A stretch of DNA of 64,000 nt, taken from an uncultured Fidelibacterota bacterium (GTDB lineage Bacteria; Fidelibacterota; Marinisomatia; Marinisomatales; Marinisomataceae). How positions within the stretch are numbered: position 1 is the first letter of the stretch; the number at the start of each line of letters is the position of its first letter. Positions 9,878-28,821 of the stretch are shown here, piece after piece. The DNA lies in assembly GCA_902525615.1 (NCBI GenBank), contig CABZHT010000001.1, positions 176,813 to 240,812 of the forward strand, in the 5' to 3' direction. The notes below the pieces were generated by a model. It worked only from the letters and a program-made list of their open reading frames with translations. It was not told the origin of the DNA and did not search any database. Made by a program: the position numbers and the translations under genes.

Positions 9878-10498
9878 TTATGCACCTGTTAATAAATAAA
9901 AAATAATAGATACAGGAGTTAAAATTATTGTTGATAAAATAGGAATTCCTATCAAATTTAAAATAATTAATCCAATTAAAATTCTTGGTCCATAAATCTC
10001 AATTTTATAAAGTGTTCTTGGGTTTCTAACTATTAATGGAAGAATTCTTGAACCATCAAGAGGATTTAAAGGTATCAAATTAAAAATAGCTAATACAATG
10101 TTAATTTGAATAAATATTTCTAGAGGGAAAATAACCTCTTCACTAAACTGAAAGTAGAAATTTAGCCGATAAATAATTGATGCTAAACAGGCAAGAAACA
10201 TGTTTGATGCAGGTCCAGCCATTGCAATCATCATCATATCAGATCTTGGATTTTTTAAATTTTGCATAACAACTGGAACGGGCTTTGCCCATCCAAAACC
10301 TAAAAAATAAAGAGCAAAAGTTCCGAAAGGATCTAAATGGTTAAAAGGGTTCAAGTTCATGCGATTTTGGTAATATGAAGTGTAGTCACCAAGAAGATAT
10401 GCTACTCTCGCGTGAGCGTATTCGTGAAAAGTTAGTGCAAATAATATGGTAGGCACTAAAATCAATTGTATTTCTAATGGTAAACTTGCTATTCCCAT
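9878..10498 (-). CDS. Site-2 protease family (M50) membrane metalloprotease
   Basis: This 206-aa polytopic membrane protein has the zinc-binding HEYAH motif (residues about 25-29) inside a membrane segment. The second M50 signature, NLIPLNPLDGSRIL, is near residue 137. It matches the short YwhC-type subgroup, which lacks PDZ domains and so is not RseP. Substrates are unknown. It lies between xer and miaA and is probably co-transcribed with both. Confidence 0.85.
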   Translation of the reverse strand: MGIASLPLEIQLILVPTILFALTFHEYAHARVAYLLGDYTSYYQNRMNLNPFNHLDPFGTFALYFLGFGWAKPVPVVMQNLKNPRSDMMMIAMAGPASNMFLACLASIIYRLNFYFQFSEEVIFPLEIFIQINIVLAIFNLIPLNPLDGSRILPLIVRNPRTLYKIEIYGPRILIGLIILNLIGIPILSTIILTPVSIIFYLLTGA

Positions 10499-10511
10499 GC
10501 GTTAAAGATAA

Positions 10512-11420
10512 TTAATTCTTTTTTTTATCAAAAGCTTTCATGTACTCACTATCAATAAACTCTTTTGATAAATGAACATATATTTCTGTCGTTGAAATAT
10601 CTGAATGACCAAGCAGTTTCTGAATTTCAATTAAGTTCGCCCCTCCATCAACAAGATGCGTAGCAAATGAGTGTCTAAAAGTGTGAGGAGAAACAGTTTT
10701 TGTAATGCCAGCTGCATTAACATACTTTTTGATTGATTGCCATATAGCCGCTCTAGTTAATCTTTTTCCATTATTGCTTAAAAAGACAAATTTTTGCTGA
10801 GATGACTTTCTATTAGACAGTATATGTCTAGATTGATATAAATATTTCTCCAACCATTCCTTAGCATAAAATGTTAAAGGAATTATTCTCTCTTTATTTC
10901 CTTTACCAAAAAAACGGATTACATTAGCATCAAACTGTATATTATTTATTTTTAGTTCGCACAATTCACTAACTCTTAAACCGCAAGAATAAAGCAATTC
11001 GATAATACATCTATCTCTTAAACCTAAGAGCTCATTATCAGTATTCTCTGATTGTTTAAATATTCTTTTAATCTCTTCAATAGATAATACTGTTGGCAAT
11101 TTCTTTGATAATTTTGGTGTATAAATGCCATTAAGTGGATTTTTTTTAATTATTTTTCTATCAATTAAATAAGAAAAATATGAAGATAGAGAAGAATATT
11201 TTCTTTTAATTGATGTTGGAGAAATTTTACTTCGGTTTAAGTATTTGAAATATTTTTGTATTATTTCAGTTTCATTCACAATCTGTTTGAATGGAATTTT
11301 TCTTTTGAATAAATATTTTTCAAAAGATTTGATATCAGATAAATAAGAATCTATTGTATTTGAGGAATGATTTTTTTCAATTTTTAAAACTTGAACGTAG
11401 TGCTCTAAGTTTTTAAGCAT
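10512..11420 (-). CDS. Tyrosine recombinase XerC/XerD family
   Basis: This 302-aa site-specific recombinase probably resolves chromosome dimers. It has an N-terminal SAM-like core-binding domain (residues 1-95). The catalytic residues are all visible: Arg in YSCGLRVSEL, Lys in GKGNKERIIPL, HTFRHSFATHL, the LLGHSDIST histidine, and the nucleophile in TEIYVHLS. I use the ATG at 11420; the track begins at a TTG two codons earlier inside the gcvH stop. C versus D cannot be settled from one copy. The housekeeping context argues against a mobile-element integrase. Confidence 0.88.
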   Translation of the reverse strand: MLKNLEHYVQVLKIEKNHSSNTIDSYLSDIKSFEKYLFKRKIPFKQIVNETEIIQKYFKYLNRSKISPTSIKRKYSSLSSYFSYLIDRKIIKKNPLNGIYTPKLSKKLPTVLSIEEIKRIFKQSENTDNELLGLRDRCIIELLYSCGLRVSELCELKINNIQFDANVIRFFGKGNKERIIPLTFYAKEWLEKYLYQSRHILSNRKSSQQKFVFLSNNGKRLTRAAIWQSIKKYVNAAGITKTVSPHTFRHSFATHLVDGGANLIEIQKLLGHSDISTTEIYVHLSKEFIDSEYMKAFDKKKN

Positions 11421-11422
11421 GA

Positions 11423-11800
11423 TCAACCAATCATTTCAATATAGGATTTGGAATCAAGTAACGAGTCTGTACCACTGTCAGCTGATAATTCAATTTTAAC
11501 CATCCATCCGCTATCATATGGACTGGAGTTAACATTTTCAGGATCATCATTCAATTCCTCATTGACTTCAACTATTTTTCCGGAAACTGGCATAAATAAG
11601 TCTGATACTGTTTTGACCGCTTCAATTGTTCCAAAAACATCTCCTTCATTGAATGATTCATCAACATCTGGAAATTCTAAAAATATTATGTCTCCAAGCT
11701 CACCTTGTGCAAAATCAGTAATACCAACTGTAGCTATATTATTTTCAATTTTAACCCATTCATGTTCTGAAGTGTACATTAAGTTATCAGGATGATTCAT
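11423..11800 (-). CDS. gcvH: Glycine cleavage system H protein
   Basis: This 125-aa lipoyl carrier shuttles the aminomethyl group between the P, T and L proteins of the glycine cleavage system. The lipoylation site is K63 in FGTIEAVKTVSDLFMPVSG. SEHEWVKIENNIATVGITD is the family N-terminus. No other gcv genes are in the window. It overlaps the 3' end of accC by 14 bp, an unusual pairing of two swinging-arm systems. Confidence 0.96.
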   Translation of the reverse strand: MNHPDNLMYTSEHEWVKIENNIATVGITDFAQGELGDIIFLEFPDVDESFNEGDVFGTIEAVKTVSDLFMPVSGKIVEVNEELNDDPENVNSSPYDSGWMVKIELSADSGTDSLLDSKSYIEMIG

Positions 11801-24617: not shown

Positions 24618-25713
24618 TTATTTATTTTTTTCCATTTTATCTAACAAATAACTATATATAAAATCATCAATATTGCCGTCCATAACTGATTTTATACTTC
24701 CTACTTCATGTTTGGTTCTATGATCTTTAATCATGTTGTAAGGATGAAAAACATAGGATCTAATTTGACTACCCCAACCAATATCTTTTTTTTCTCCTTC
24801 AAGCTCTTTTTTATTAAGTAGCTGCTTCTCCATCTCTAATTGAAAAAGTTTTGATTTTAATACTTTTAAAGCTTGTTCTTTATTTTTGTGCTGAGATCTT
24901 TGCGTTTGACATTGAGTAACAATACCTGATGGTATATGAGTTATTCTTATTGCTGAATCTGTTTTATTAACATGCTGACCACCAGCACCGCTTGACCTAA
25001 AAGTATCTATCCTTAAATCTTTTTGATTAATTTCAATATCAATATCCTCATTAACTGCTGGAGAAACTGACACTGAAGCGAATGAAGTATGTCTTCTGCT
25101 ATTAGAGTCAAATGGAGAAATTCTAACTAGTCTATGAATACCAATCTCAGCTTGCAATAAACCATAAGCATAATCACCAGAAATTTCTACGGTACAATCT
25201 TTTAATCCGGCCTCGTCACCGTTTTGGAAGTCAATAACATTAAATTTAAAACCTTTTGATTCAGCCCACATTGAATACATGCGATAAAGCATTTCAGCCC
25301 AATCTTGACTTTCTGTACCTCCTGCACCTGGATGAATTGTAATTATGGCATCGTTACTATCATTATCACCATTTAATATAAGTTTTAATTCAAACTCCTT
25401 AAGAAGATTAGAAAAGGTATTAAGCTCTTTTTTAACTTCTTCTTCTTCAACTTGATTTTCATTTAAAAATTCAAAAAGTACTTCTATATCTTCAGCTTTC
25501 TGAACAAGATTTTTCCTTAAGGAAATATCTTTTTCAAGAAAGGATATTTTTTTCATCACAGTGGTAGATTCAGAGTTGTTTTCCCACATTGTGGGATCAG
25601 AAATTTGCTCTTTTAATTTTTGGAGATCGGAGGTCTTTGATTCAAGGTCAAAGATGCCTCCTGATTTGATTATATTTTTCTAAAGATAATGAATATGCTT
25701 CTTTTAAATCCAT
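24618..25713 (-). CDS. prfB: Peptide chain release factor 2, with programmed +1 frameshift
   Basis: The track lists only 24618-25589, but RF2 starts at the ATG at 25713. Frame 0 reads MDLKEAYSLSLEKYNQIRRHL and meets an in-frame TGA at 25650-25648. A +1 shift at CTT-TGA-C continues as DLESKTSDLQKLKEQISDPT into the listed ORF. The total is about 364 aa, the normal RF2 length. The GGQ motif lies in SGAGGQHVNKTDSAIRITH and the stop-recognition SPF in RISPFDSNSRRHTS. The start overlaps the end of the PNPOx-UbiA gene by 10 bp. RF2 thus controls its own synthesis through UGA read-out. Confidence 0.96.
25647..25662 (-). promoter_or_regulatory. prfB programmed frameshift site
   Basis: The minus strand reads AGGAGG-CAT-CTT-TGA-C. 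The internal Shine-Dalgarno-like AGGAGG sits 3 nt before the slippery CTT, with the UGA stop and following C right after. Spacing matches the well-studied E. coli site (AGGGGG-TAT-CTT-TGA-C). The two reading frames on either side join into one RF2 sequence. Confidence 0.95.
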
Positions 25714-27179
25714 ACACTTAGTAATACTCCAATTGTTAATAGTACTCCAGTTAAAAAGTGAATTCCAATGGTTGATACATTAACAATTAATAGTTCATAA
25801 GGTAATTGCTGAAGATTAGCATCTTCTTTTTCCCATTCAACTAACCAATCAGAACCTTTCTTAGATGCAAAATTGAAAATAAGTAATGGAATCAATGCTA
25901 CTAATGTAAAATAATTTTGTGCATAAACAGATGCTCCAACAATTAAAAGAAATGATATAACCATTAAACTTTTCCAAACTGAAAATGGTTTTCTATAATT
26001 AGCTTTTTCACCTGGACCAGCCAATTTAACAACCCAGCTATTTTTATTTGCAGCCTTATCAGCATTATAATCTTGGAAACAATTTATAAATAGGACTAAG
26101 GCAATAAATATTCCAACTGGAACTGAGTAAAATAATGTAACTATTGGATCAATTGATTGAGTTGGTGCCACTGCTAAGTTTTGCATCAAAGCTGCACCAT
26201 ACACCATTAGAGGACCAAATCCAATAAATACTGCTAAATCTCCGAGACCATTGTATGCAAGTTTAAAAAATCCAGTATACATCACTCCCAAAAATACACC
26301 CAAATATCCTAGATACATTAAGACTGAATCCATTCTTCCTTCGAAGAAGAGGTTGTTTAGATTAAGACCAACTAAGATGGTACATGAAAAAAAGAAAATT
26401 GAAAGCAGGAGCATATTTGTAGGGGTAATTAATCCAGATTGAATAGCTCTTGATCCACCGTTAAATGGACTAGCCAACTTATTCATTTCATCATTTCTGG
26501 ATTTATGATCAAAATAATCATTAATATTATTTGTACCAATTTGAGCACAAACTGCACCTAATAATACCATCCAAAATATCGACCAATCAAAGACCCCAAA
26601 CTGTTTATATGCAATAGCAGAACCAAGCATGATTGGAGCAATGGTAGCTGTTAAAAAAGGTGCTCTTACAACAGTAACCCAATATTTTAAAGTATTTAGT
26701 ATATTATTTTTTACTTCTTTAAATAATCCAATTCTATTTTCAGGAACTTCCATCCATTCAAATTGTTTTTCAGCATAAAAATCAACATATTTTATTGTTG
26801 TTGGTTGAATCTTGTAATACCCTATCACATCATTGGTAATCAAAAAATCGTCATGCATATATTCTGAAAAAGCTTCAGTGACATTAAGAATTGCTTTTTT
26901 GGCTTTTTCAACTTCATCCTCATCTGTTACTTTTGAAGCATATGCATCAATTTGCAGCTCCTTAATACCATCCTCGCCGTCAGGTCTAATAACACATTGA
27001 ACTTTATGATTCATAGAAATTTGTACAGCTTTTCTAGATGGATTGAAAGTGAAAAAAAATATATCTAATCCATCGTTTGCAAAATAAACATTTGCTGCAG
27101 AAGAATTGCCAGCAACACTTGTTGATAAAGTCATAAAATCTGATCGGTTTAATAAATCTAAAATCTTGTCTTTTAACAT
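25704..27179 (-). CDS. Fusion: PNPOx-like flavin-binding domain + UbiA/MenA-type prenyltransferase
   Basis: This 491-aa protein has two parts. Residues 1-145 resemble the split-barrel pyridoxamine-phosphate-oxidase-like fold (FMTLSTSVAGNSSAANVYFA, then a VQCVIRPDG strand). Residues about 165-491 are a polytopic UbiA-family prenyltransferase. Its first Asp-rich motif is NNINDYFDHKSRND, followed by FNGGSRAIQSG as in MenA; the second motif is NCFQDYNADKAANK. UbiA proteins attach polyprenyl chains to aromatic acceptors in quinone, haem or lipid synthesis. A menaquinone role is plausible, but the acceptor is unknown. The soluble domain could bind flavin, haem or F420. Its last bases encode the start of prfB. 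Confidence 0.82.
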   Translation of the reverse strand: MLKDKILDLLNRSDFMTLSTSVAGNSSAANVYFANDGLDIFFFTFNPSRKAVQISMNHKVQCVIRPDGEDGIKELQIDAYASKVTDEDEVEKAKKAILNVTEAFSEYMHDDFLITNDVIGYYKIQPTTIKYVDFYAEKQFEWMEVPENRIGLFKEVKNNILNTLKYWVTVVRAPFLTATIAPIMLGSAIAYKQFGVFDWSIFWMVLLGAVCAQIGTNNINDYFDHKSRNDEMNKLASPFNGGSRAIQSGLITPTNMLLLSIFFFSCTILVGLNLNNLFFEGRMDSVLMYLGYLGVFLGVMYTGFFKLAYNGLGDLAVFIGFGPLMVYGAALMQNLAVAPTQSIDPIVTLFYSVPVGIFIALVLFINCFQDYNADKAANKNSWVVKLAGPGEKANYRKPFSVWKSLMVISFLLIVGASVYAQNYFTLVALIPLLIFNFASKKGSDWLVEWEKEDANLQQLPYELLIVNVSTIGIHFLTGVLLTIGVLLSVWI

Positions 27180-27181
27180 TC

Positions 27182-27961
27182 CTAATTTTCCTCAATAAAT
27201 TCATTCATCTTTTCTTTTAGAATCTTTCCTAATTCATCCAAAGAGAGGCCTGAACTTATAAAATATCCATTCTCAGCAACAGAAATTTTTCCACTTTCTT
27301 CTGAAATAACAACTGCCAAAGCATCACTCTCTTCTGAAATTCCAAGTGCTGCTCGATGCCTAGTTCCCATTTCAGGATTTAAAGTCTTACTCTCCGTCAG
27401 AGGTAAAATACATGCTGCTGCTTCAATTAAATTATTATGAATTACTACAGCTCCGTCATGTAAAGGAGAAGATGGATTAAAAATTGATACTAAAAGCTCA
27501 GGGCTAAATGAAGCATGCATCGGAACAGCATCTGAAACTACATTTTTTAAAGAATTTTCACGTTCAAAAACAAGTAAAGCTCCCCACTTGTTCTTTTTTA
27601 TTTCTTCAATGCTGAAAAGTATATCTTCTTGAATAGCCGTTCTTTCAATTTGAAAAAGCTTTCTTAAAATTCGATTCTGTCCAACAGAAGTTAAAAGTCT
27701 TCTGATTTCAGGTTGGAATAGAATTACAAAAACTACGACCCAAACAGTTTGAAAAAGATTTAAAAGCCAAGATGTAGCCTTAAATCCAAGAATATTAATT
27801 ATAAATCCAGCAAAAAATATAATTAATAAACCAATTAACATTTGACCACCTCGAGTACCTCTAAAGTAAGAATAGGCATAAGAAAAAATGAATGTAACCA
27901 AGATTAAATCAAATAGATCAGTTAGTGTAAACTTTAGAAAACTTATCTCAAAAAGGTTCAT
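27182..27961 (-). CDS. cdaA: Diadenylate cyclase CdaA
   Basis: This 259-aa membrane enzyme makes cyclic di-AMP from two ATP. It has three N-terminal helices (about residues 13-95) and a DAC domain with DGAVVIHNN and the catalytic GTRHRAALGISEES motifs. It lies 8 bp after folP. That neighbourhood is recurrent in FCB-group bacteria. No c-di-AMP phosphodiesterase of the GdpP type is in the window. Confidence 0.93.
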   Translation of the reverse strand: MNLFEISFLKFTLTDLFDLILVTFIFSYAYSYFRGTRGGQMLIGLLIIFFAGFIINILGFKATSWLLNLFQTVWVVVFVILFQPEIRRLLTSVGQNRILRKLFQIERTAIQEDILFSIEEIKKNKWGALLVFERENSLKNVVSDAVPMHASFSPELLVSIFNPSSPLHDGAVVIHNNLIEAAACILPLTESKTLNPEMGTRHRAALGISEESDALAVVISEESGKISVAENGYFISSGLSLDELGKILKEKMNEFIEEN

Positions 27962-27969
27962 ATATTAAT

Positions 27970-28821
27970 TTAGCTAATTAAATGGTTTGAATTAAAAATT
28001 TTATTTGCAATTAAAAGAGCTTTATTAGTTTCAGAAACGTCATGAACCCTGAAAATCTTTACACCTTGTTGTAATCCAATAACGTTAGCTGCTAATGAAC
28101 CTTCTAACCTATCATTTTCAGGAAGACTTAAAGATATTCCAATAAAGGATTTTCTTGATGCGCCTAGCAAAACTGGAAAATTCAATACAACGAAATGATT
28201 TAAATTATTTATGATTTCAAAATTATTTTCTACAGTTTTACCAAAACCAATTCCAGGATCAATTATAATTTTTTTTTGATTTACTCCTTTAGAAATAGCA
28301 AAATCTATCCTCCCAACAAGATAATCTTTGATATCCGGTATTAGAGATTCATACTGGGGATTATCTTGCATATTCTTAGGAGTTCCTTTCATATGCATTA
28401 TAATTAAGGGACAATCAAATTTTACTGCAACATCAGCCATTAACGGATCAATCTCCATAGCACTAATATCATTTATTATTGAAGCACCAACATCAAGAGC
28501 CTTGCTTGCTACAATTGATTTAGTAGTATCAATTGATATACAAACATCAGATTTTTTTCTTATACCTTCAATGACAGGTATCACTCTTGAAATTTCTTCA
28601 TCTAAACTGACTGGATTTGAGAATGGCCTTGTTGATTCACCGCCAATATCAATTATATCTGCACCATTCTTGACCATCTCTAATGCATGCTCAATAGCAG
28701 TATTTTTTTTAAAGTATTGTCCTCCGTCTGAAAAAGAATCGGGAGTGACATTTAAAATTCCCATGATTAATGATTGCTTATCTTCACTTGAAAGCCAATC
28801 ATTGAATTGTTTAATATTCAT
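27970..28821 (-). CDS. folP: Dihydropteroate synthase
   Basis: This 283-aa enzyme condenses dihydropterin pyrophosphate with p-aminobenzoate in folate synthesis. Motifs are IMGILNVTPDSFSDGGQY, NGADIIDIGGESTRPFS, and the C-terminal HDVSETNKAL. ISIDTTKSIVA and IIIDPGIGFGKT complete the TIM-barrel signature. It starts 3 bp after ftsH ends. Confidence 0.96.
   Translation of the reverse strand: MNIKQFNDWLSSEDKQSLIMGILNVTPDSFSDGGQYFKKNTAIEHALEMVKNGADIIDIGGESTRPFSNPVSLDEEISRVIPVIEGIRKKSDVCISIDTTKSIVASKALDVGASIINDISAMEIDPLMADVAVKFDCPLIIMHMKGTPKNMQDNPQYESLIPDIKDYLVGRIDFAISKGVNQKKIIIDPGIGFGKTVENNFEIINNLNHFVVLNFPVLLGASRKSFIGISLSLPENDRLEGSLAANVIGLQQGVKIFRVHDVSETNKALLIANKIFNSNHLIS

Follow-up and report, generated by a model that had tools for sequence, protein, structure and literature searches.

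What does a flavin-type split barrel do on an integral membrane prenyltransferase, and from where would such an enzyme obtain the ring that it prenylates? Both questions are raised by one gene in a stretch of 64,000 nucleotides (the window) from a 0.92 Mb genome in five contigs that is 89% complete. Close relatives are found in Candidatus Marinimicrobia (SAR406; now Fidelibacterota). The gene sits within a long row of minus-strand genes, between a CdaA-like gene and prfB, with the following features:

24618..25589, minus strand: PrfB-like release factor, the downstream neighbor (open reading frame, read from sequence)
25704..27179, minus strand: coding sequence of 491 amino acids, a PNPOx/GS26-like domain joined to a MenA-type UbiA polyprenyltransferase (open reading frame, translation, Pfam, AlphaFold2)
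25704..26729, minus strand: UbiA-type membrane prenyltransferase domain, residues 151-491 plus stop (PF01040, NCBIfam, Foldseek)
26058..26072, minus strand: second Asp-rich motif, DYNAD, residues 370-374 (sequence)
26508..26531, minus strand: first Asp-rich motif, NNINDYFD, residues 217-224 (sequence)
26730..27179, minus strand: split-barrel (PNPOx-like) domain, residues 1-150, presumed cytosolic (PF01243, GS26 profile, Foldseek)
27030..27050, minus strand: T44-x3-S48-R49-K50, the FMN-phosphate motif of PNPOx-like proteins (alignment; FMN binding predicted)
27182..27961, minus strand: CdaA-like diadenylate-cyclase protein, the upstream neighbor after a 2-bp gap (read from sequence rather than by profile)

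The open reading frame list and the translation give a single uninterrupted frame of 491 residues at 25704-27179. In this protein Pfam matches only two families, both above their gathering cut-offs: PNPOx_N (PF01243) at residues 2-93 (E 8.5e-7, 29.8 bits against a cut-off of 28.1) and UbiA (PF01040) at residues 181-435 (E 7.3e-24, 84.8 bits). The AlphaFold2 model (mean pLDDT 88.8, pTM 0.85) places a helical membrane domain after a split barrel. In Foldseek each half has its own structural matches, PNPOx-like proteins for the N-terminal half (2i02, TM 0.81 by target; 3db0, 0.84) and UBIAD1 (8djk, 0.77) as well as archaeal UbiA for the membrane half. A profile built from 29 related N-domains recovered General Stress Protein 26 (3ec6, E 1.8e-16) and Lin2891 (3db0, 3.9e-12). 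The sequence-only reading had described a split barrel and a UbiA/MenA prenyltransferase with both Asp-rich motifs in one frame, which the Pfam, profile and AlphaFold2/Foldseek results bear out; its doubt that the N-terminal region might match no split-barrel profile is answered by PF01243, 3ec6 and 3db0. We also considered an assembly chimera or a reading-frame artifact and ruled both out, because 20 of the 24 genomes in the genus hold the same full-length fusion, at a syntenic locus where flanks are present, with the order CdaA-like gene, fusion, prfB conserved throughout the genus (gene names read from sequence). Two of the other four genomes have no match and one has a weak match only. The last holds a copy in pieces (L024 5035-6487, G043 C10) with stops and a frame change, either a pseudogene or an assembly error.

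By profile and predicted fold, the N-terminal domain of the fusion belongs to the PNPOx-like/GS26 split-barrel superfamily, and the FMN motif is present. It is not a true pyridoxamine phosphate oxidase, as Pfam finds no match in the fusion to the C-terminal PdxH domain that goes with PNPOx_N. Fold and sequence profile are shared with General Stress Protein 26 and similar proteins (3ec6, 3db0, 2i02), as is the T-x3-SRK motif of the wider PNPOx family, which we take to be the site for the phosphate of FMN. In those structures the proteins are free-standing and soluble, whereas the split barrel here is tied to a membrane enzyme. The motif, in the form T-x3-[ST]-R-K, is kept in every aligned member of the fusion's own clade; it is lost in families f27-f29 and altered to DPK in Dehalococcoidia. 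Its retention, together with the GS26/PNPOx fold, is consistent with catalytic coupling, in which the split barrel acts as a flavin reductase that converts an oxidized acceptor (e.g. a scavenged naphthoquinone) to the hydroquinone and passes it directly to the prenyltransferase. Such coupling would suit a cell that imports quinones, and reduced menadione is generally regarded as the substrate of the human homolog UBIAD1.

The membrane domain carries the expected catalytic signatures. Across 31 fusions, N217 and N220 of the first Asp motif are invariant and D221 and D224 nearly so, while D370 and D374 of the second are invariant. All of the top-scoring NCBIfam models for the protein are MenA, although it falls below the MenA equivalog cut-offs (TIGR00751, 97.4 against 102.15; PRK06080.1-3, 119.8 against 264); one relative (L057) passes TIGR00751 at 111.7. 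In a prenyltransferase tree made by a quick method, with references including E. coli MenA on long branches, the fused proteins lie outside the canonical clade of E. coli MenA and the MenB-linked MenA of Marinimicrobia (support 100). The fusion thus has the fold, both Asp motifs and the best-scoring family in common with MenA (PRK06080/TIGR00751) and human UBIAD1, and differs from them in its extra N-terminal domain, its sub-equivalog scores, its separate clade and a genome without a men operon or DHNA synthesis. The scores and the position in the tree suggest that the acceptor could differ from DHNA. The genome holds only one other UbiA-family gene, the heme-O synthase CtaB, which adjoins CtaA and an SCO-like gene, and the fusion would therefore be the cell's only quinone polyprenyltransferase.

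We searched the genome for a source of the ring. With E. coli queries, tblastn found none of MenB, MenC, MenD, MenE, MenH, MenI, UbiA or UbiC in the window's genome, while the same queries do recover MenA, MenB, MenC, MenD and MenH in MenB-bearing Marinimicrobia. A MenD candidate proved to be an IlvB-like protein (best match 67 bits against a profile cut-off of 244), and a MenF candidate was read as TrpE, as it adjoins trpG/trpD-like genes. Nor did the profile search find MqnC, the marker that we used for the futalosine pathway. By these genes the window's genome has neither the classical Men nor the futalosine pathway, and although the genomes compared are metagenome-assembled or from single cells, and this one is incomplete, the absence of ring genes holds over 24 genomes. 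We also rejected a homogentisate route: HPPD was not found in the window's genome, and its occurrence in 1 of the 24 genus genomes (G044) and in many MenB-bearing genomes does not track the fusion.

The genome retains what would be needed once a ring is available. UbiE/MenG is present above the MenG/UbiE subfamily cut-off; the same protein scores 168 bits against an MpqE cut-off of 335, which argues against a methyl-plastoquinone pathway. An IspB-like polyprenyl synthase, SdhAB and an aa3-type oxidase were found by tblastn, and an alternative-complex-III-like cluster by reading the sequence. The presence of succinate dehydrogenase, alternative complex III and aa3 oxidase implies that the cell needs a quinone. 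The combination of a MenA-type enzyme, MenG and a polyprenyl synthase without DHNA genes is the gene set expected of a DHNA-scavenging auxotroph, which would take up external DHNA. Lactic acid bacteria such as Lactiplantibacillus plantarum are auxotrophs of this kind, with tail-end menaquinone genes and no DHNA-making genes (PMC10746273). The window's organism is similar in having the tail-end genes from DHNA onward without DHNA synthesis. These auxotrophs are, however, mainly fermentative and use DHNA for extracellular electron transfer (PMC10746273), whereas in the window's organism the MenA is fused and the aerobic chain complete.

The fused gene is not confined to the window's genome, an idea excluded by copies in Marinimicrobia and Dehalococcoidia, the two groups surveyed. 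Copies of about 50% identity occur in families f3, f8-f11, f13, f14 and f20, and copies of 27-36% identity in f27-f29. In two genomes of Dehalococcoidia (Chloroflexota), 1.1-1.2 Mb in size, the copy is 66-68% identical and nested in the window's clade, suggesting that horizontal transfer between marine phyla is likely; it lies at about 10000-11470 of its locus (L018, L019), in a neighborhood that is unrelated and non-syntenic. A further Dehalococcoidia clade has its own version of the PNPOx fusion, 31-36% identical. The sequence-only reading had called the fusion unexpected and asked how often it occurs. The survey finds a recurrent fusion, common in two phyla and old in both; what stands of the surprise is that no description of a PNPOx-UbiA or PAS-UbiA fusion was found in the literature searched, which missed most subscription journals. 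The fusion is thus not rare, yet we found no characterization of it. Near the divergent fusions of f27-f29, as at L058 5795-8113, there are a second UbiA-family gene and a gene for a flavoprotein of the geranylgeranyl-reductase family, which may serve to saturate the side chain or to carry out an ether-lipid-like step.

Possession of the fused gene is strongly associated with absence of the classical pathway. Among Marinimicrobia, 95 genomes have a fused gene, and MenB passes the curated cut-off in 1 of them; of the 45 whose gene is unfused, it does so in 37 (nominal Fisher p 8e-25, a value inflated by kinship); the remaining eight unfused genomes likewise lack MenB. The corresponding counts in Dehalococcoidia are 0 of 15 fused and 19 of 41 others, with one fused genome (G352) holding a partial MenB just below the cut-off. 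MqnC scores above its cut-off in only 3 of 245 Marinimicrobia genomes. The contrast also appears within genera. In g19, g22 and g30, some species have a canonical MenA in addition to a men cluster or operon; these match the query once and weakly, as that MenA would be expected to, while their congeners carry the fused gene; in g59, G193 has a MenB-linked MenA (L095) and G192 a PAS version, described below. These pairs make it unlikely that kinship alone causes the split between MenB and the fusion. Together this establishes a real, recurrent fusion, a variant of MenA-type prenyltransferase tied strongly to genomes without known ring synthesis, and the earlier suggestion that it may mark a special quinone pathway gains support from its occurrence in genomes without MenB or MqnC. 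A single genome, G070, was seen with both a complete men operon (L203 on C178) and a PNPOx-MenA gene (L051 on C192), and it may represent a pathway switch in progress.

Many other Marinimicrobia carry a MenA-type protein of about 430 residues that begins with a PAS domain of 110 residues (PAS_9, E to 1e-11 in the five PAS-MenA proteins scanned; 32 aligned). We had taken these frames for truncated PNPOx fusions, a reading that was dropped when they turned out to be PAS fusions. None of the 95 fused-gene Marinimicrobia genomes carries both versions, where the type in unfetched genomes was judged by frame length and match start. At four syntenic loci, one version replaces the other in place (G096/G091 in genus g19, G145/G146 in g36, G148/G147 in g37 and G187/G192 in family f20). 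The flanking genes of each pair are mostly 55-95% identical, with one short gene at 44%, and their order is unchanged, whereas the UbiA domains are just 29-38% identical and the N-domains unrelated. In the same quick tree, the PAS fusions form one clade (support 95), the Marinimicrobia PNPOx fusions another (100), which includes a few unfused members of f29, and the Dehalococcoidia PNPOx fusions a third (100). The PAS proteins therefore resemble the fusion in joining a sensor-type domain to a MenA-type enzyme, in their loci and in their MenB-less genomes, and differ in the N-domain, the UbiA sequence and the clade. That two unrelated domains on one enzyme are swapped at the same loci argues that the N-domain is accessory and the enzymes equivalent, as do the loss of the N-domain in some f29 members of the PNPOx clade and of the FMN motif in f27-f29. 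In 32 of 32 PAS domains (L065 1104-2384 and 31 other loci), C11 and C101 are invariant and apparently lie on adjacent strands, a possible redox switch.

These observations weigh against catalytic coupling, since PAS, the domain that substitutes in situ, is not known to act as a reductase, and since f29 members of the same clade do without the N-domain and f27-f29 without the FMN motif. We consider coupling rather unlikely for these reasons. The exchange of two unrelated folds that serve equally, and the loss of the domain in some relatives, would instead fit N-domains that aid dimerization, folding or membrane placement and neither sense nor catalyze; split barrels and PAS domains commonly dimerize. 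Such a passenger role is, in our judgment, distinctly improbable. The FMN motif is conserved in the window's clade, and the 32 PAS domains share 26 invariant positions, two of them Cys, both of which suggest a bound ligand or chemistry, and the strong tie of the fusions to MenB-less genomes also speaks against it. The redox or ligand sensing that the sequence-only reading attached to the N-domain is plausible, and we draw it from the PAS domain, unrelated in fold, that takes the place of the split barrel.

Partner genes bear on the acceptor. MenG lies directly downstream of PNPOx-MenA at five loci (L045, L047-L049, L055). At L046 4361-7836 (G096), where relatives hold PAS-MenA, the order is TetR, MenG, MenI-like, PNPOx-MenA, and the MenG and MenI-like proteins are 88% and 72% identical to their counterparts in the complete men operon of G109. 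The locus looks like a hybrid operon, with the fused gene attached to the start of a men operon. PAS-MenA in L125 and L126 follows a MenI-like gene. We also observed a conserved TetR-family regulator directly or shortly upstream of PNPOx-MenA at L046, L052 and L053 (families f8, f11). The MenG and MenI-like partners suggest a DHNA-type ring. They stand against prenylation of a benzoquinone-type ring (homogentisate or 4-hydroxybenzoate) in place of a naphthoate, which the position of the fusion outside the canonical MenA clade and the missing DHNA pathway would otherwise favor. With HPPD nearly absent from the genus, UbiC and UbiA not found by tblastn, the top models all MenA and a UbiE that fits MenG/UbiE and fails MpqE, we regard a benzoquinone acceptor as very unlikely. 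A MenI-like thioesterase beside fused genes in the absence of MenB (L046, L125, L126) fits an aryl-CoA made by the cell better than uptake, and it is mainly because this clashes with pure scavenging of free DHNA that we keep a hidden ring route under consideration.

From the sequence and the structural model we hypothesize, with middling confidence, that the fusion is the cell's sole quinone prenyltransferase, gated by a cytosolic redox or ligand domain, and that its DHNA-type ring is scavenged or comes from an unrecognized route. The membrane domain would join polyprenyl diphosphate to a DHNA-type naphthoate, obtained by neither the Men nor the futalosine route, and UbiE/MenG, encoded elsewhere in the genome, would then methylate the product. 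The resulting menaquinone-like quinone would be reduced by succinate dehydrogenase and oxidized by alternative complex III. The N-terminal domain may be an accessory module that adjusts prenylation, for example through a bound flavin. DHNA acts as a feedback inhibitor of MenD in Mycobacterium tuberculosis and Staphylococcus aureus (PMC9835592). With this classical target missing, another point of control would be needed, which offers a rationale for a sensor-like N-domain, and control may have been placed on MenA itself. We speculate more broadly, as an idea that we consider less likely than not, that MenA-type enzymes fused to a split barrel or a PAS domain mark a third, undescribed way for bacteria to make a menaquinone-like quinone, in many Marinimicrobia and some marine Chloroflexota. 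Its ring would come from neither the Men nor the futalosine pathway, and the attached redox or ligand sensor would control flux at the prenyltransferase.

Many lineages had no known quinone pathway in a 2026 survey of 26,264 genomes, which proposed unknown quinones or routes and recorded makers of menaquinone or phylloquinone without known genes, such as Gloeobacter, as an open problem (PMC13386864). The fused MenA is a concrete gene in a marine group that is widespread. It is the single enzyme that persists where the pathway disappears, and its attached domain suggests how a prenyltransferase may be controlled. Should the ring be scavenged, some ocean bacteria would rely on their neighbors for a respiratory cofactor; otherwise a missing pathway awaits discovery. 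A UbiA-family protein is reported in fusion with another enzyme, IspH (PMC4746011). The partner there is an Fe-S reductase of isoprenoid synthesis and neither a split barrel nor a PAS domain.

Several minor observations concern other genes. At L199 1385-4156 (G086), a canonical MenA frame continues into sulfatase-like sequence as one 923-residue frame, either a start/stop artifact or an odd fusion. A TENA/PqqC-like gene beside some PAS-MenA genes was considered for a role in quinone synthesis and ruled out, as it scores 299 bits with TIGR04305 (cut-off 200), which places it in the CADD folate family, and so probably serves p-aminobenzoate. The window's own genome encodes a CADD-family protein at C1:2013-2672 (L128; TIGR04305, 299 bits), a putative p-aminobenzoate/folate route, and positions 27970-28821 of the window hold a folP-like gene. 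The CdaA-like gene 2 bp upstream of the fusion in all syntenic genus genomes points to possible c-di-AMP signaling in SAR406.
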